This document shows positions 1,666-27,706 of a stretch of 64,000 nt of DNA, piece after piece. Numbering within the stretch: the first letter of the stretch is position 1; the number at the start of each line of letters is the position of its first letter. The translations under genes and the position numbers were made by a program. This stretch comes from Aquila chrysaetos chrysaetos. Lineage: Eukaryota; Chordata; Aves; Accipitriformes; Accipitridae. The stretch is taken from contig NC_044010.1 in assembly GCF_900496995.4 (NCBI RefSeq), positions 3,286,001 through 3,350,000 of the forward strand, read 5' to 3'. The notes beneath the pieces are model-generated. The model worked only from the letters and a program-made list of their open reading frames with translations, searched no databases and was not told the DNA's origin.

Positions 1666-2390
1666 AGTGTAACTGCAGAGTCCCAACCCAGTAGATGAGC
1701 AGCCCTTGGGAGCAGGATCCAAACCTCCTCTGACAAGCACCGAGCCTGCTGGCGATGCTCTGCCAAGCACGAGGTCTGGCGGAGCAAGGGCAGAGGAGCC
1801 GATGAGCTGTACTTGCGCTCTGCCTGTACCATTTTTCTGCCGTAGCCTGGGGGCCCTGAACATTTTATTTAACTTGGATCTTTTAATTCATCAACTTGTT
1901 TTTCCTAATGGGCTTGCTCTTCTATTGCTCATCCGAGATCGATAAGCAGCCGGAGCTGGGCTGCGCAAGGCTTCTACGCAGACAGTAGGCGAGAAATGGA
2001 TACTAAGCGTTGCTGGTTTTCAGCTTGTCACCGGTGATTCGGGGATAAGGAGGCGTGCGTGACACCGTCTTTGTCTGTCACAGAGTCAGGGAGGGGGGGG
2101 AGAAGGAGAAGGGGGCTTTTACAGCGCGCTTAGAGGTTGCGGCGCAGGCGGGCAGCGACCCTCTCTGCGTTAAAGGCTGGAGCCGGGGACAGGGTAGGTC
2201 TCAGATGGGTGGGAGGCTCCGAGTGACACCGCGGCCCCTCGCCCAGCCATCTCTGCTCCTCCGTCACACCCTGCCTTTGTCCGCCCTTCTCCGTCCCTTG
2301 TCCCTTTGTCTCCTTCGCGCTCGAGCTGCGCCTGCCTCCCGCCGCGTCGGCAGGCTCCGCGCGCCGATAACTCCCTCTTCTCCTCCCCAG

Positions 2391-2549
2391 CTCAAGCAGT
2401 GGAAAGCCTTTGAAGAAGAAAGCCAAACCGTGAGCCACATGGCGAAATATTTCACCAGCCCGAGCAAGAGCTGCCGCTCGGTGTACAGCGAGGAGCAGCT
2501 CTACCAGCTGATAGGGGAGAAAAACTCCATGAAGCGGCTGCTCACCGAG
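2391..2549 (+). CDS. GPR156: GPR156 coding exon just after TM7
   Basis: This exon encodes 53 residues beginning LKQWKAFEEESQ and ending MKRLLTE. It is the start of the cytoplasmic tail, immediately after TM7. The 159-nt exon is phase 0 at both ends, with acceptor CTCCCCAG (2383-2390) and donor GAG/GTACGG (2549/2550). The last residues start the coiled coil that continues in the next exon (KNAVIESLQEQ). A tail coiled coil is a shared trait of the GABA-B-like receptors. The middle of the exon (SPSKSCRSVYSEEQL) looks more variable than its ends. Confidence 0.95.
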
Positions 2550-3179
2550 GTACGGGGCTCTGCCGGCCCCCCTCGGCCGCGCCGGCTTCTCCCCTTCCCT
2601 GCCGTGGGCTGAAGGCTTTGCAGGGTGGGAAGCCCTTCCCGACGCCCCGGTGCTCCCGCTCCAGCCTCTTCCCTCCGGAGGGGAAAAGCCGCTTTGTTTT
2701 GTCACATCGCTCCGCGCCCCAAAGCGCCAAAATTTAGGCGTAATCTGGAGGGTTTCCAAAAAACACGTAGGGAGAAGAGCAGGAGAGCCTGGTTCCCGCA
2801 GCCCGGTCAAACGTGGTTAATTCAGAGGGGAGATGCCCCATCTCAGGAAAGCCCCCAGCCTCCTGCTCTGTCGCCTGCACTGCGTGGGGGGGAGCACCCG
2901 TGTTTGGAGAGCTGCCTGCCCCGGTGCCCCCCCCGCCCCTTCCCGCACCCACATCTGGGGGGCTCTGGGGGGCTCCAGGGGAGGACGTGGTCACACACGC
3001 TGCCGACGTAGCTCTTCCAGCCCTATTTGCGGTGCTGCCTCAGAGCACCTCTCCACGCGGAGGTGGGGGGGGGGGGGGGGGGGGCGATACGTTTTTTGGC
3101 CGTGCCTGCTTCCAAACTGGCGGCGTTCTCGTCCCCTCCGCCTGCCCCACGCTTGACCGGGTGTATCTGTTTGACGCAG
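2550..3179 (+). other. GPR156: GPR156 intron before the terminal exon
   Basis: This 630-nt GC-rich intron has donor GTACGG at 2550 and an acceptor TTTGACGCAG ending at 3179. It contains a 20-nt G run at 3065-3084, about 95 nt upstream of the acceptor. No other feature was recognised. Confidence 0.9.
3065..3084 (+). repeat. poly-G run (20 G)
   Basis: An uninterrupted run of 20 G lies in the intron close to the last GPR156 exon. On the coding strand it can form G-quadruplexes. Run length is often miscalled by sequencers. Confidence 0.95.
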
Positions 3180-4361
3180 AAAAACGCCGTGATCGAAAGC
3201 CTGCAGGAGCAAGTGAGCAGCGCCAAGGAGAAGCTGATGAGGCTGATGTCTGCAGAGAGCGGCTGCGACCCCCACGTACCGCCGGCAGCTCCCCGCACCG
3301 GGAGCTCGGGACGGCGTGGGGATGCACCGGGGGACCACCGCCCCCCGGACCCGGAGCGGGACGGGTCGCAGCCTCCCTGCTTGCCGGGTACGCCGCCTCT
3401 TCGCAGCGATGCTCAGGATCTCCAGAAACACGCGAGCCGCGAGCCTGTTTGCTCTCGGGTGCCGGTTTTTGACACGGGGGACGGCATCGAACGTGGCCCA
3501 AAAGACGTCCAGGAATGCGGGAAACCCGCGGGGCAGGGGCAGCCTCCGGAGCAGCTGCCGGGCCAGGACATCTCGGCCGGCGTGGCGTGGGAGACGTCCC
3601 CCAAAGTCAGCTACGTCAGCAGCGAGAAGCTGCGGGAAATCTTGCGAGAGCTGAGCCTGGATGGCAAAACCTATAGCCCGGCTTTACCTGGGGGATCCCC
3701 GCGGGGCAGCCCCCCAGGTGAGCAGGGAGGAACGTGGGGGGCCCGGGAAGGCTGCCCGGGCATCCGCACGCCCCTCAGCCCCTACCCGGCGAGGCGGCGG
3801 CGGAGGATCCTGCTGCCCGCTGCTTCCACCCGCTTCCACGGACACGTGTCCCCTCGCGCCAGCCGCGGGGTGAAGGAGGCAGGCGGCTGGGGCGGCGGGG
3901 GATCGCCGCGTATCTCCCCGGGGAGGGAAGGGGAGATGGCTGGCGGGGGGGTCCTTCACCCGCCAGCACCGTCCCCTCCAGCCGTCCCTGGGGAGCTCTG
4001 CCTCCAGCCAGAGGGATGGCCGGGATGGCCGGAATCTCGGGACGCTTCGCCGTGCATCCCGCGGGAGCGGCGGCGGTGGCAGGGCACCCCGAGGGGACCC
4101 GCCGAGCCCTCCCTGCGCTCGCTGTACTATTACCCGGACTCCGACTCCAGCAGCAGCAGCAGCAGCTCTGAGGAGATGTTTCACGGCTGCCACCGGCCCT
4201 GCTGCGAGGTCTGCTTCCAGAGTCCGCGCGGCTCCCTGGGAAGCAGTAGCACGGACACGGACGCGGAGCCCGGCGGTTGCGCGGGCCACTGGACAGAGCG
4301 CCGCGGCGGGCCCCAGCCCGTGGTGAATTTCAAAGAAGATCTGAAACCCACCTTTGTGTGA
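3180..4361 (+). CDS. GPR156: GPR156 terminal coding exon: coiled coil and cytoplasmic tail
   Basis: This exon encodes the last 393 residues and the TGA stop (4359-4361). It opens with KNAVIESLQEQVSSAKEKLMRLM, a heptad-like coiled coil continuing from the previous exon. Next comes a poorly conserved Pro/Gly-rich tail. Three islands resemble the mammalian protein: SSEKLREILRELSLDG (about 3625-3665), LSPYPARRRRR (about 3775-3805), and the C-terminal block. That block has an acidic/serine run ([13 protein letters not shown], from an AGC repeat near 4145-4165), a cysteine cluster (CHRPCCEVCFQS) and the ending NFKEDLKPTFV. The ending is the clearest proof of identity. With the two other exons, 525 residues are visible; the human protein is about 814. 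A 264-nt in-frame segment (3718-3981) has splice-like borders, but it encodes the RRRRR island and is therefore normally coding. Confidence 0.95.
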   Translation, partial: KNAVIESLQEQVSSAKEKLMRLMSAESGCDPHVPPAAPRTGSSGRRGDAPGDHRPPDPERDGSQPPCLPGTPPLRSDAQDLQKHASREPVCSRVPVFDTGDGIERGPKDVQECGKPAGQGQPPEQLPGQDISAGVAWETSPKVSYVSSEKLREILRELSLDGKTYSPALPGGSPRGSPPGEQGGTWGAREGCPGIRTPLSPYPARRRRRILLPAASTRFHGHVSPRASRGVKEAGGWGGGGSPRISPGREGEMAGGGVLHPPAPSPPAVPGELCLQPEGWPGWPESRDASPCIPRERRRWQGTPRGPAEPSLRSLYYYPDSDSSSSSSSSEEMFHGCHRPCCEVCFQSPRGSLGSSSTDTDAEPGGCAGHWTERRGGPQPVVNFKEDLKPTFV

Positions 4362-4512: not shown

Positions 4513-4776
4513 GATGTCAGCCCCAGCGGCGACTGCAGACGGTGTTTGGCTGGGAGGTGGTTGGCAGCACTCGGGGAGGTGGCCGCGGTTTTGTCCCTGC
4601 CACCCCACAGATAGCCAGCACGTCTGTCCGTCCCGCTGCCGGCAGCGGAAAGACTGGGGGCTGGGTGTCCTGCGAGAGCCCAAACTTCATCATCTCAGAG
4701 GGTTTTCCCTACGAGAGCTGGTTGATTCGCGGCGCCGCGTCTCAGAAACGCGCGCGGCTTCTCGCACGCGGCAGGC

Positions 4777-6774: not shown

Positions 6775-7413
6775 AGCTGAAAACTGGCTGTGGATGCACC
6801 TACTAAGGCGGCCAACGGCATCCTGGCTTGTATCAGAAACAGTGTGGCCAGCAGGAGCAGGGAAGTGATTTCCCCCCTGTACTCGGCACTGGTGAGACCG
6901 CACCTCGAATACTGTGTTCAGTTTTGGGCCCCTCACTACAAGACAGACATTGAGGTGCTGGAGCGTGTCCAAAGAGCAACAAAGCTGGTGAAGGGTCTAG
7001 AGAACAAGTCTTACGAGGAGCGGCTGAGGGAACTGGGGTTGTTTAGCCTGGAGAAAAGGAGCCTGAGGGGAGACCTTATCGCTCTCTACAACTACCTGAA
7101 AGGAGGTTGTAGCCAGGTTGGTGTCGGTCTCTTTTCCCAAGTGACAAGCGATAGGACGAGAGGAAATGGCCTCAAGTTGCACCGGGGGAGGTTTAGATTG
7201 GATATTAGGAAAAATTTCTTCACCGAAAGGGTTGTCAAGCACTGGAACAGGCTTATGGGAAGTGGCTGAGTCACCATCCCTGCAAGTATTTAAAAGATGC
7301 GTAGACGTGGCACTTAGGGACATGGTTTAGTGGTGGACTTGGCAGTGTTAGGTTAACAGTTGGACTCGATGATCTTAAAGGTCTTTTCCAACCTAAATGA
7401 TTCTATGATTCTA
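6775..7413 (+). mobile_element. CR1 LINE, 5'-truncated copy with intact 3' end, sense
   Basis: This is the C-terminal end of the CR1 second ORF plus its 3' UTR. A frame of about 159 codons is still open (6790-7269) with the family landmarks [29 protein letters not shown] and RLDIRKNFF. The frame is lost only at the end (about 7253-7267), where the usual LPREVV is missing, consistent with a two-base deletion. The 3' UTR ends GATCTTAAAGGTC...AACCTAAATGATTCTATGATTCTA, the tandem octamer end typical of avian CR1. The copy has no endonuclease and no catalytic reverse-transcriptase core, so it cannot move by itself. The long open frame suggests it is younger than the other copies here. Confidence 0.95.
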
Positions 7414-16341: not shown

Positions 16342-18040
16342 GATCACAGAATCATCACAGGACTGTAGAGGACAGACGTGACCGCTGGAGATCATCTAGT
16401 CCAGCCCTCCTTGCTCAAGGAGGATCAGCTAGAGCCAGTTACCCAGGACCGTGCCCAGTCAGGTTTTGTGTATTTCCAGAGATGGAGACTCCATAACCTC
16501 TCCGGCCAACCTGCTCCAGTCTTTGACCAGCCCCACAGTAAAAAGAGTGTTTTCTTGTGTTCAGGTGGAGTTTTGTGTGTTTTAAATAGTGCCTACTGCT
16601 TCTTGTCCCATCAGAGGGCACCCATCTCCCTCTTTATTCCCTCCAACCAGGTATTTATCCATATTGACAAGATTCCCCCTGAGCCTTTTCTTCTCCAGGC
16701 TGAACAGTCGCAGCTCTCTGCGTCTTCCCTCAAATGAGAGATGCTCCAGTCCCTTAATCATCTTCGTGGGCCTTTGCTGGACTCACTCCAGTAAGTCCAT
16801 GTCTTTCTTGTACTGGGGAGCCCAGAACAGGGCACAGGACTCCAGGTGTGGCCTCACCACTGCTGAGTAGAGGGGAAAGATCACTTCTTTTGAACTGTTG
16901 GCAATGCTCTTCCTAATGCAGCCCAGGATGTTGCTGGCTGTCTTTGCTGCAAGGGCACACTGCTGGCTCATGGCCAGCTTGATGTCCACCAGAACCCCTC
17001 AGGTCCTTCTCTGCACAGCCCCCAGCATGTACTGGTGCATGGGGTTATTCCTCCCTAGGTGCAGGACTTTGCATTTCTCCTCGTTGAACTTCACGCAATT
17101 ACTTTCTGCCCAATTCCCCAGCCTGTCCAGGTCACTCTGGATGGCAGCACACCATCTGGTATATCAGCTCCTCCCAGCTTTGTATAATCTGTAAATTTGC
17201 CAAAGGTGTACTCTGCCCCATCATCCAGATCATTAATGAAGATGTTAAACAGTCTAAGACCTAGTAACGGGGTATACCACTAGTGACTGGCCTCTAGCTG
17301 GACTTTGTGCCACTGATCGCGGCGCTCTGGGTCCGGCCATTCAGCCATTTTTTGATCCACGTCACTGTCCACTTACGTAACCCGTACTTTGTCAGCTTGT
17401 CTATGGGGATGTTATGGGACACAGTGTCAGAAGCCTTACTAAAGTCAAGGCAAACAACATCCACTGCTCTCCTCTCATTCACCAAGCCAGTCATCTTGCC
17501 GTGGAAGGCGGTCAGGTCGCTTAAACCCGATTTCCCCTTTGTAAATCCATGCTGACTATACTCGACCACCTCCTTGTTCTTCATGCATCTGGAAATGGCT
17601 TGCATGATTTTTTTCTCCATTGCCTTTTCAGGGATTGAGGCGACGCTGCCTGGACTGTAGCTTCCCAGATCCTCCTTCTTGCCTTTCTTGAAGGTAGGAG
17701 TGACATTTACTTTCTTCCAGGCCTCAGGAAACTCCCCTGATTGCCGTGATCTTTCAAAGAGTGGCCTTGCAATGACGTTAGCCAGCTCCCTCAGCATTTT
17801 CGGGCCCCTTGCTCAGGGGCCTGGGATTGCTGAAGGACACTCTCACCAGTAAGGCTTCCTCCCGGGTCACCTCCCCCTGCTTCCACCTTTTGTACATTTC
17901 CTTTTTATGTCAGAATTTAGTCGGGAGCTCCTTGTTCATCCACGCACGCCTCCTGCTTCCTTTGCTTGATTTTCTTCTTGTCAGGATGAACCACTCTTGA
18001 ACTTTGAGGAGATGATCCTTGATTATCAAACAGCTCAGGC
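16342..18040 (-). mobile_element. CR1 LINE, 5'-truncated, antisense, with broken reverse transcriptase
   Basis: On the minus strand this copy starts after the endonuclease domain (about 18040, SWLI-like linker, then KKEMYKRWKQGEVTREE). It runs through the reverse transcriptase to the 3' end at 16342 (TGATTCTGTGATCC). The longest surviving frame, 17294-17797, shows NVTPTFKKGKKEDLGSYSP, SQHGFTKGKS and DVVCLDFSKASDTVSHN. The catalytic FADD motif is altered to FTDY (about 17184-17195), so the enzyme is dead. Further frameshifts separate the RT from the C-terminal part ([18 protein letters not shown], about 16790-16850). This is the longest mobile element in the window. Confidence 0.95.
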
Positions 18041-24000: not shown

Positions 24001-24779
24001 TAAACAATCCCAGGTCCTTTGTAGTAGGTAAAACCATTCATCATTTATCAGGCAGGAAAAAAGGTTTCCAGCAAACTGAGCACTCCAGTGCGAGCAATCT
24101 GCTGAACAGGACCATTTTGAGAGACTGGGTTTGTTTTCTGCTTTGGAAAACAGCTCTTGTAAAGGATAAATTTTAGCTGCCTTTGGCCAGGTCTTTGTTT
24201 GCTCACATAGCAATGTTGTTCAGAACGGGACTGGAAAAAAAAAGTAAAAAAAAAATAAATCTGGCAATATTCTGATGCCTTGAAAAGAAAACAGCAGTTC
24301 TTAGTTAGACTCTAACACTGGCAAAAAGTGCTTCTGCTAGTCCAAGTTATTTTGTTTGTGGTATAAACTATTCTGGCAAGAACACTTTTTTTTTTTTTTT
24401 AATGGCATAAGCAAGTGGTGCTTGATTTTTGCTGAGGTCTGCCGAGTAATTTTACTGAGGTCACAGCAGGGAGCAGTACTCCAGCGCCTGCTTTGCCAGG
24501 GCTGGGAACCGATGTCCCTGGAGATGCTTCAGAGCCCTGAAGAAGTACAGGCTCTTCCAGAACAGTGCCTGGGACTCTGGCCAGGGCCAAGCTCAATCCA
24601 CTCGTGGTTGCACCGAGACCTGGATATGAGGGCCAGTTTAGTGGCTCTAATACTAACTGTGTTTCCTGTAAGAAAGCCTTGCTGGTAACGGCTGAACCGG
24701 GAGAACTTTCGAAGACTCTTCATCTTCTTTCCCCCTCGCTCAGCCCTGTTTCTGCAAAATAGGTTTACCATCCCTTCAC
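18041..24779. other. intergenic, no gene recognised
   Basis: This is 6.7 kb of moderately AT-rich sequence between the antisense CR1 and the GSK3B CpG island. I saw no conserved exon, repeat or RNA gene. Short A runs occur at about 21830 and 22163. A GC-richer patch at 24440-24720 contains no recognisable gene. Distal regulatory elements could lie here but cannot be seen by eye. Confidence 0.5.
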
Positions 24780-25176
24780 GTGCCACCTCCGCCGCTTCCA
24801 GCATACCGCTGTCGTATTTTTTTCTTAACAAGTCACCTCACCGCGCCGCTACCCTTTTCCCCACAGCCGCCGCATTCTTCCCGCCAACCACACCGCAGGC
24901 CTGCGGATAACACCGCGGCAACGGCCGGCTCGACCTCGCCGTCTTTCACGGCCCGACGAGGGACGGAAGGCGGGCTCCCGCCACCTCAGCCCCTGACGGT
25001 TTGAGGCACAAACCGGGCGATTTCGGGGGTTTTAACTTTCCCGCCCCTCCCTCGGCTCCCCGCTGCCCAAGCGGCCTTCCCTCGCGGGCAAGGACCGGGC
25101 AGTGCAAACCCCGCTGGGACAGGAGGCCTCGGAGGGCAGGCAGGGCCTGAGGCGGGGGGCGGGCCGCCTCCCCTCA

Positions 25177-25248
25177 GGCGCGAAGGGCGGGCCCGAGGGC
25201 GCAGGGCGGCGGCCGCCGCCCTGCGCCCTCGGGCCCGCCCTTCGCGCC
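25177..25248. repeat. perfect 72-bp palindrome, no spacer
   Basis: The 36 bases 25177-25212 are the exact reverse complement of 25213-25248. Pairing stops immediately outside (25176 A against 25249 G). The arms are almost pure G/C with few A/T. It lies in the CpG island upstream of the CCAAT cluster. It could form a cruciform or hairpin, or it could be an assembly fold-back artefact. Confidence 0.97.
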
Positions 25249-25256
25249 GCACTGAG

Positions 25257-25293
25257 CATGCGCGCTCCCCCTCCCCCGGCCCCGCCCATGCGC
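25257..25293. promoter_or_regulatory. GSK3B: two CATGCGC (NRF1-like) sites
   Basis: CATGCGC occurs at 25257-25263 and 25287-25293, exactly 30 bp apart. Each is part of the NRF1 palindrome core seen in many CpG-island promoters. The matches are partial, so binding is only a possibility. Confidence 0.45.
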
Positions 25294-25301
25294 GCCCGGT
25301 G

Positions 25302-25316
25302 AGGTCATAAAGGTGA
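25302..25316 (+). promoter_or_regulatory. GSK3B: DR3 nuclear-receptor-like element
   Basis: AGGTCA (25302-25307), a TAA spacer, and AGGTGA (25311-25316) form a direct repeat with 3-bp spacing and one mismatch. DR3 is the arrangement preferred by VDR/RXR and PXR-type dimers. Function is not shown by sequence alone. Confidence 0.4.
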
Positions 25317-25347
25317 GCGGACGCTGCCCGCGGCCCCGGGCTTCGGG

Positions 25348-25720
25348 ATTGGTCCGCGAGCCGAGAGCGAGGGTGACGTCTTCGGGCCGCCTCATCGCCG
25401 CCAGCCAATGGGAGCGCTCGGCCGGGGAAGCCAATGGCAGCCCGCGTCCGCTCTCCGCCTCGGGCTGCGGCTTGAAACCGTCCCAGGGCTGTGTGACAAA
25501 GGCAGCGCGCCCCTCGATTGGCTGTCCCGCTTCGGCTCTCTTCGGGTTGGCCCGGCAATAGCCGGAAGAGGGAGCTCCTTCCTATTGGCTCCCCGACCGC
25601 GCTGCTAGGGCGGCGGCAGCGTTTTCCGATTGGTTCTCCGTTTCGCTTCGGGGAGACTCGGCTGCGCTCGCGATTGGTCACGACCCGTAACAGGCATTTC
25701 CGTAGCGACCTCGGGATTGG
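25348..25720. promoter_or_regulatory. GSK3B: cluster of eight CCAAT boxes (NF-Y-type), GSK3B promoter
   Basis: CCAAT occurs on the + strand at 25405 and 25431. Its complement ATTGG starts at 25348, 25517, 25584, 25629, 25673 and 25716. The last four are spaced 45, 44 and 43 bp. NF-Y binds CCAAT in either orientation and marks TATA-less CpG-island promoters. A CRE-like TGACGTC (25374-25380) and an ETS-like CCGGAAGAG (25562-25570) lie among them. Transcription probably starts downstream, somewhere near 25750-26050. Confidence 0.8.
25374..25380 (+). promoter_or_regulatory. GSK3B: CRE-like site TGACGTC
   Basis: Seven of eight bases match the CREB/ATF palindrome (TGACGTCT here). It lies between the first and second CCAAT boxes, a common pairing in housekeeping promoters. 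Confidence 0.45.
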
Positions 25721-26023
25721 TCCCGAGGAGGCTCGGATGTTTCCGTAAGGGCCTCGGGCTGGGGGCTAGCGAGTGCGTCGGGCTCTTCGGCTGGGTATTC
25801 ACAGAAGGTGCTTAGGGCCGTTCCGCAGCGTAGGGCGGCGACGGGTATAGGCGGCTGCGCGGCTTTGGCGCACACACAGAGCGCAGCAGCAGGAGCCCGG
25901 CACGCAGCGGAGGCAGCAGCGGGGACAAAGAGACTGACGGCAGAAACGGGGAGGGGGGCCCGGCGGGAGGCGGCCGGCGCCGGGAGGGAGCGGCGGGAGG
26001 CTTCAGCCGGGCGGGCGAGTCCC

Positions 26024-26095
26024 ATGCCCCTCGGACGCCCGGGGAAGCAGCAGCAGCAGCAACAGCAACAACCGCCGCCGCCGCCAGCGCTCTGA
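26024..26095 (+). promoter_or_regulatory. upstream ORF 1, 23 codons with Gln/Pro run
   Basis: ATG at 26024 opens a short frame ending in TGA at 26093-26095. It encodes a run of eight Gln from mixed CAG/CAA codons followed by five Pro. It counts only if the transcript starts upstream of 26024. Confidence 0.45.
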
Positions 26096-26146
26096 AGCCG
26101 GCTGAGGAGGAGCCGGGGAGCCGCCGCCGCCGCCGCCGTCGTCGTC

Positions 26147-26233
26147 ATGGCCTGCGCCGCCGCCGCCGGCCGTCGCCCGCAGTGCAGCGTCCCCAGCCTG
26201 AGCCGCCGCCAGCTGCCCCTGCGGGCGCAATGA
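26147..26233 (+). promoter_or_regulatory. upstream ORF 2, 28 codons
   Basis: ATG at 26147 has a strong context (G at -3, G at +4). The frame reads MACAAAAGRRPQCS and ends in TGA at 26231-26233. That stop overlaps the next ATG as ATGA. It is likely to be translated if the leader begins upstream. Confidence 0.55.
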
Positions 26234-26271
26234 GGAGCCGCGCCGGAGCCGCCGCCTCAGCGCCGCACTGA
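26230..26271 (+). promoter_or_regulatory. upstream ORF 3, 13 codons, overlapping ORF 2 as ATGA
   Basis: The ATG (26230-26232) shares bases with the stop of the previous upstream ORF. This geometry allows termination-reinitiation. It ends at TGA 26269-26271. Confidence 0.5.
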
Positions 26272-26463
26272 GAAGCCTTAGCGAGGGAGCGAGCGAGGCC
26301 GCCCGGGCCGCTTCACCCCTACTCCGCCCGCCGCGGATCCCACCGCCCCTGCCGGATCCCCTTGCGAGCGGCCGCATCACCTCCTGTCGGCGGATCCGGG
26401 AGTCCGGAGATCCCTCCGCCGCGGAAAAAAATAGTCCCGTTCCCTGCCGCCTCCCTCAGAGGC

Positions 26464-26567
26464 GAGGGGGAAGGAGAAGAGAGGGGAGGGGGAAGAAAGA
26501 GGAGGAAGAAAAAGAAGAAAAAAAAAGAAAAAGGGGAGGGGGGAGGAAAAAAAAAAAAGAGAGAGAA
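26464..26567 (+). repeat. 104-nt uninterrupted homopurine tract in the leader
   Basis: No pyrimidine occurs from 26464 to 26567. The tract alternates G-rich blocks (GAGGGGAGGGGG) with A-rich blocks (up to 12 A). In DNA it can adopt triplex structures. In RNA it offers G-quadruplex-like and poly(A)-like segments. Confidence 0.95.
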
Positions 26568-26612
26568 CCCCGGCGACGGGATCAGAGGAGCCGGGCCGTG
26601 AGCCTCCGCCCC

Positions 26613-26618
26613 ATGTGA
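26613..26618 (+). promoter_or_regulatory. start-stop element ATGTGA
   Basis: This minimal upstream ORF is an ATG followed directly by TGA. The TGA is also the last in-frame stop before the GSK3B start. Start-stop elements can stall initiating ribosomes. Confidence 0.55.
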
Positions 26619-27281
<663 letters not shown>

Positions 27282-27299
27282 TGAGGCAGCTCCCTTTCT

Positions 27300-27313
27300 C
27301 CCCCCCCCCCCCC
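27300..27313 (+). repeat. poly-C run (14 C)
   Basis: An uninterrupted run of 14 C lies in the first part of intron 1. Confidence 0.95.
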
Positions 27314-27478
27314 TCCATTAACCTTGAATAGGCGCACGCCGCCGCTTCGTTTGGGGCCTGTTGGGCAAAAAATGCCGGTTGGTTTGTCCTCTCCCTTAGC
27401 CTCTGATCGCTGCCAGCGTTGTAAGCGGCCTCTGGCTAATTAAAAAGCCTTTTTTTGTTTTGTTTGGGGTTTTTTGTT

Positions 27479-27495
27479 CCCCCCCCCCCCCCCCC
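27479..27495 (+). repeat. poly-C run (17 C)
   Basis: An uninterrupted run of 17 C lies in early intron 1, next to a GT-rich stretch. Confidence 0.95.
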
Positions 27496-27706
27496 TCTTG
27501 TGAAGCGGATTGGGAGCTCCCGTAGCCTGTATTTCCTTTTTATTTCCTCCTCGAAAGGAGGAAACGAATTGCGGGCACGCAGGTACGGCCGTGACATTCA
27601 CGTTCATTATGTGTTTTTAAGCACTCCTGGCTCTGAAGGAGAGAGCTTGGAAGATTTTTCCATGCACCCGTAGATCGGGTGTGAGCACCTTTTAGTCCAG
27701 CCCATT

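Follow-up and report, generated by a model that had tools for sequence, protein, structure and literature searches.

The stretch of DNA analysed here, a window of 64,000 bases from Aquila chrysaetos chrysaetos (contig NC_044010.1), harbours the start of the GSK3B coding sequence within a CpG island. An ATG at 27036 opens 28 residues identical to the N-terminus of GSK-3 beta (PDB 4nm0 and others, E 2e-13), and we annotate these residues as the first 28 of GSK3B coding exon 1 (27036-27119, forward strand). The island extends over 24800-27400, with 71% GC and a CpG observed/expected ratio of 0.91. Its assignment to GSK3B in a first-pass annotation of the sequence agrees with both the composition profile and the protein match downstream. 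In the upstream part of the island lies the subject of this report, a perfect palindrome at 25177-25248, whose end is 1,788 bp from the GSK3B ATG, with the ATG downstream. About 22.6 kb upstream of the palindrome and on the same strand, an open reading frame at 2049-2609 (+) matches GPR156 (8ieb, E 5e-15, residues 113-168). By this match GPR156 would sit upstream of GSK3B in the same orientation; the two genes are neighbours in human. A long serine-rich reading frame at 3012-4358 (+), with no Pfam match, may be the last exon of GPR156. Elsewhere in the window are two reverse-transcriptase-like fragments, one at 17297-17812 (-) with a match to Pfam RVT_1 (E 1.8e-10) and one at 6781-7266 (+) with no Pfam match at E 0.001. 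Both resemble CR1 LINEs, as would suit the genome of a bird or reptile, but a motif scan with CR1 tail motifs gave no matches. Three homopolymer runs (G20 at 3065-3084, C14 at 27300-27313 and C17 at 27479-27495) are of an error-prone kind, and their lengths may be inexact.

To the right of the palindrome, motif scans reveal a cluster of promoter-type sites. Two NRF1-like cores on the forward strand, GCATGCGC at 25256 and CATGCGC at 25287, together occupy 25256-25293, and the scan of 24801-27200 places eight CCAAT/ATTGG boxes and a CRE-like TGACGTC (25374) within 25348-25720. Because of these sites, the palindrome looks as though it lies at the outer edge of a housekeeping-type promoter.

The 72 bases at 25177-25248 are identical to their own reverse complement. 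A left arm of 36 bp (25177-25212, forward strand) is followed, with a spacer of 0 and a mismatch count of 0, by a right arm of 36 bp (25213-25248, forward strand) that is its exact reverse complement, and each arm is 89% GC and contains 7 CpG. A repeat search returned the same pair of arms, 100% complementary and 0 nt apart, and when all 64,000 bases were scanned for inverted repeats having perfect arms of 12 bp or more and a spacer of 0-100 nt, this was the only one to emerge; the runner-up perfect palindromes in the window measure only 16 bp (4633-4648) and 14 bp (24893-24906). The presence in the given sequence of a perfect, spacerless 72-bp palindrome with 36-base arms, as first noticed in the first-pass annotation, is therefore confirmed by reverse-complement identity, repeat search and window scan alike. 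When the island (24500-27500, minus the left arm) was shuffled 500 times with dinucleotide counts preserved, the longest arm ranged from 4 to 10 bp and in none of the 500 did it reach 36. From the local base composition (pair probability 0.309), the chance of 36 consecutive pairs is about 4e-19 per centre. With exact 36-bp arms set against a shuffle maximum of 10 bp, and with odds of that order per centre, we reject a chance origin.

The palindrome had been described as ending abruptly on both sides, which is nearly right. Only 2 of the 10 adjoining positions pair in register, and out to 60 positions (flanks 25117-25176 against 25249-25308) the count is 23 of 60, where a pair probability of 0.309 would give about 18.5. 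What the description misses is that 4 bp can resume past a bulge: CTCA at 25173-25176 may pair with TGAG at 25253-25256 beyond the 4 nt at 25249-25252, and three of these four pairs are used by the computed fold. Two smaller repeats touch the ends of the palindrome. A 13-mer, GCGCCGCACTGAG, crosses the right end (25244-25256) and occurs again at 26260-26272, about 1 kb downstream in the island, either by chance or through a small duplication. The left flank has an 8-bp inverted repeat of its own, GCCTGAGG/CCTCAGGC (25145-25152 and 25172-25179), which reaches three bases into the palindrome.

The flanks also hint that the core may sit within a larger, imperfect palindrome (25134-25293). In the lowest-energy fold of 25130-25295, 30 pairs join flank to flank, out to 25134/25293; the best near-diagonal 25-nt flank match has p 0.032, and the cross-pair count of the right flank measured against 268 real island segments has p 0.019, both uncorrected. 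These results would suit a history in which an older imperfect palindrome, of about 80 bp on each side of the centre, had the inner 36 bp of each arm made perfect by template switching, the conversion of near-perfect into perfect repeats being described as a classical outcome of that process (PMC7954356). Alternatively, the inner arms might only seem perfect because short reads that could be placed on either arm were used in polishing. Set against this, most of the tests fall short of significance, among them six anchored flank alignments (p 0.053-0.163) and three local ones (p 0.083, 0.072 and 0.175), all uncorrected. When the core was kept fixed and the flanks were shuffled at four flank sizes, p was 0.588, 0.825, 0.890 and 0.927 for the fold energy and 0.168, 0.058, 0.963 and 0.150 for the cross pairs, and replacing the right flank by the 268 real island segments gave p 0.396 for the fold energy. 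Moreover, runs of G or C in both flanks imitate pairing. Since the several tests are mutually correlated and their p values are uncorrected, we treat the larger palindrome as unproven, and regard the correction of an older imperfect repeat as an improbable origin of the core.

Within the core, the bases around the axis of symmetry deserve attention. The centre, GGCGGCGGCCGCCGCC (25205-25220), consists entirely of G and C, and its innermost GGCC (25211-25214) appears as a 4-nt loop in the computed folds of both DNA and RNA. As single-stranded DNA the 72-mer is predicted to form a 34-bp stem closed by this loop, at -58 kcal/mol, and as RNA the predicted energy is -91 kcal/mol; the 112-nt context of the palindrome folds with z = -10.4 relative to shuffles. 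Assuming costs of 14-22 kcal/mol, we estimate that the critical superhelix density for cruciform formation lies at -0.020 to -0.044. Extrusion would on this estimate be thermodynamically possible in principle, from which no regulatory role follows. A centre of 16 bp made of G and C only should slow cruciform extrusion, and a hairpin on single-stranded DNA at a replication fork appears likelier than a cruciform. The same centre, by its self-complementarity, may have been the seed of fold-back priming; as the GGCC loop is itself self-complementary, fold-back synthesis from it would leave no visible spacer.

We consider it probable that the palindrome is a genuine small inverted duplication, created by a short-range template switch or by fold-back priming at the GC-rich centre. 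While the GC-rich upstream portion of the GSK3B island was being replicated, the growing strand would have turned at GGCGGCGGCCGCCGCC, copied 36 nt backward along itself or along the sister strand, and afterwards rejoined the original template in a second switch, so that one arm would be ancestral and the other its copy. Because the two flanks differ (23 of 60 positions in register), the event requires two junctions; the four-point model of template switching has two switches, which would cover the turn at the centre as well as the exit at the arm end. The continuity of the window, which contains no N and runs through the G20 and C17 tracts, gives it no visible sign of gap patching. The first-pass annotation had offered a recent fold-back duplication as one of its readings, and among those we weighed it is the best supported, although 'recent' is only loosely bounded in age. 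With 36 bp free of differences, avian substitution rates of 3e-9 to 1.2e-9 per site per year put the upper limit (95%) on the age of the duplication at about 14-35 million years, and 'recent' therefore need not mean very recent.

Comparison with template switches described in other genomes is consistent with this origin. Template switching is reported often to yield perfect inverted repeats (PMC7954356; PMC8794818), and in the gold-standard set of great-ape events, interpreted with the four-point model, a local reverse-complement copy likewise gives rise to a perfect inverted repeat (PMC7954356). The eagle arms are such a copy of a nearby segment, and their 36 nt fall within the range of copied lengths in that set (median 12, maximum 128 nt), so that a template switch fits. 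The same figures also count against this reading to some degree, 36 nt being three times the ape median. A second comparison is offered by hairpins attributed to template switching, in which a perfect stem can be made by one event (PMC8794818); those described there are stems of RNA genes, whereas the eagle palindrome is upstream CpG-island sequence with no Rfam match. Lastly, microinversions of birds (PMC3123225) and apes (PMC8755829) resemble the palindrome in being products of small local inverted copying. They differ in that the segment is inverted in place, and not duplicated in inverted form as here. Ape microinversions are flanked by inverted repeats and discussed as products of template switching or break-induced replication (PMC8755829), while for the hotspots of avian microinversion the report describes conserved stem-loops as excluded from being the cause (PMC3123225).

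The main rival to a genuine duplication is an artefact: at a GC-rich site, one arm would have been introduced while the library was being prepared or sequenced, while a gap was being filled or during assembly, and the genome would have a single arm, or unrelated sequence in place of the other. We judge this unlikely on balance, though by some way too plausible to set aside. Reverse-complement copying around a turn is what library hairpins (PMC3946424) and long-read foldbacks (PMC12870357) share with the palindrome. Hairpin-primed artefacts, in the form of interrupted palindromes, are reported from libraries of historic or ancient DNA (PMC3946424), and one study puts foldback reads at about 0.55-0.6% of the genomic reads from Oxford Nanopore, cites rates of 1-4% and of up to 20-30% from another group, and describes such reads as recurring at the same locations (PMC12870357). 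GC-rich bird promoters, in addition, are said to assemble poorly from Sanger or Illumina data and to be a weak spot of older bird assemblies (PMC9516821). The form of the palindrome argues otherwise. A fold-back read turns once and then runs on as the reverse complement, as in the single-turn reads of both reports (PMC3946424; PMC12870357), whereas the eagle sequence leaves into different sequence after 36 bp, with only 23 of 60 flank positions pairing in register. An artefact would therefore need a second error, which makes a simple read artefact an unlikely source of the palindrome and leaves a compound error, in which an artefact is combined with gap filling or polishing, as a possible one. 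Two further points weigh on the same side: virtually no foldback reads were reported for PacBio HiFi, as judged from three PacBio samples only (PMC12870357), and the G20 and C17 tracts were crossed as noted above. Foreign DNA was considered separately. The exact 36-mer arm had no matches in collections of prokaryotic and viral contigs, and blastn with the 351-bp region 25050-25400 found none in plasmids or phages, so that we see no sign of vector, adapter or prokaryotic or viral contaminant in these collections.

Could the palindrome be a functional element? It lies in the upstream island beside the NRF1-like, CRE-like and CCAAT sites, and it contains two GGGCGG and two CCGCCC boxes, that is two GC boxes per arm, as well as the ends GGCGCGAA/TTCGCGCC. 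We take the boxes to be GC boxes and the ends to be E2F-like. A selected element might regulate GSK3B or a divergent transcript either by forming a cruciform or by presenting these sites, with E2F-like ends, in a symmetric array, and a cruciform would be favourable at the superhelix densities estimated above. Doubled binding sites, on the other hand, do not require exact symmetry, and extrusion from an all-G/C centre of 16 bp should be slow. Evidence from reporters points both ways: in a designed library, expression was significantly lower with inverted repeats, but two other reporter analyses in the same publication are described as giving no consistent or no significant association (PMC9105345). 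A selected function for the palindrome is accordingly of low probability, and selected regulation of this kind is, of the explanations considered here, the one in which we place least belief. Under the favoured template-switch origin, the palindrome would probably have little or no dedicated function beyond the doubling of a few GC boxes. A more speculative variant of that origin, which we think very doubtful, would make the palindrome a recently arisen and possibly polymorphic former of cruciforms or hairpins, kept perfect by repeated template switching, that doubles GC-box and E2F-like sites and alters GSK3B or divergent transcription, whether selected or not. If this were true, template switching could build symmetric promoter elements in a single step.

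Structure formation by repeats of this size is credible, given that AAV vector integration reportedly targets palindromes with 20-bp arms and that hairpins formed by 7-bp inverted repeats are said to occur in yeast. Two general statements made when the palindrome was first noticed nevertheless find no support. Perfect palindromes of this size had been called unstable in cells, a property that has no backing at 72 bp: in one yeast study the fragile palindromes consist of repeats no shorter than 320 bp (PMC8053094), and in human, 69,888 palindromes above 50 bp have been catalogued that are perfect but for at most four mismatches (PMC7680136). They had also been called rare in promoters, which is not borne out for inverted repeats in general: perfect ones with arms of at least 10 bp are reported to be enriched at 100-200 bp upstream from transcription start sites (PMC13155455), and the density of inverted repeats in human promoters is given as 0.97 times that of gene bodies (PMC9105345). 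In being spacerless, and in its size, the eagle palindrome is like perfect and near-perfect palindromes found in the human genome (PMC7680136; PMC13155455). What is unusual is its base composition. The longest human palindromes (PMC7680136) and the spacerless repeats of eukaryotes (PMC13155455) tend to be AT-rich, in contrast to the 89% GC of the arms, and 2% of human palindromes are given as exceeding 80% GC (PMC7680136). So unusual a composition counts to some degree against a genuine duplication.

Two other classes were considered. A search of the whole window against Rfam at the gathering score returned no matches, which speaks against a structured RNA gene such as a miRNA-like hairpin. 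Within the 64-kb window, the best further ungapped match to an arm (starts 25141-25249 excluded) agrees at 23 of 36 positions; with no close second copy at this scale, the window itself gives no sign of a dispersed element such as a transposable element or MITE. The term 'GSK3B promoter' was absent among the best 10 of 848 literature matches on palindromes in that promoter, which is no proof of absence. Most likely, then, the palindrome belongs to an already known kind, an ordinary small inverted duplication by template switching, with an artefact as its main rival.

If the palindrome is an artefact, it provides a useful warning on how GC-rich promoters are rendered in assemblies, and whether real or artefactual it leaves the picture of GSK3B unchanged on present evidence. 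Should it be real, it would clearly exemplify how a segment can be duplicated in inverted form, in one step, within the promoter region of a CpG island, its composition being the reverse of what most long palindromes in the catalogues show; it might then be used to mark a lineage or to study template switching where DNA is GC-rich.
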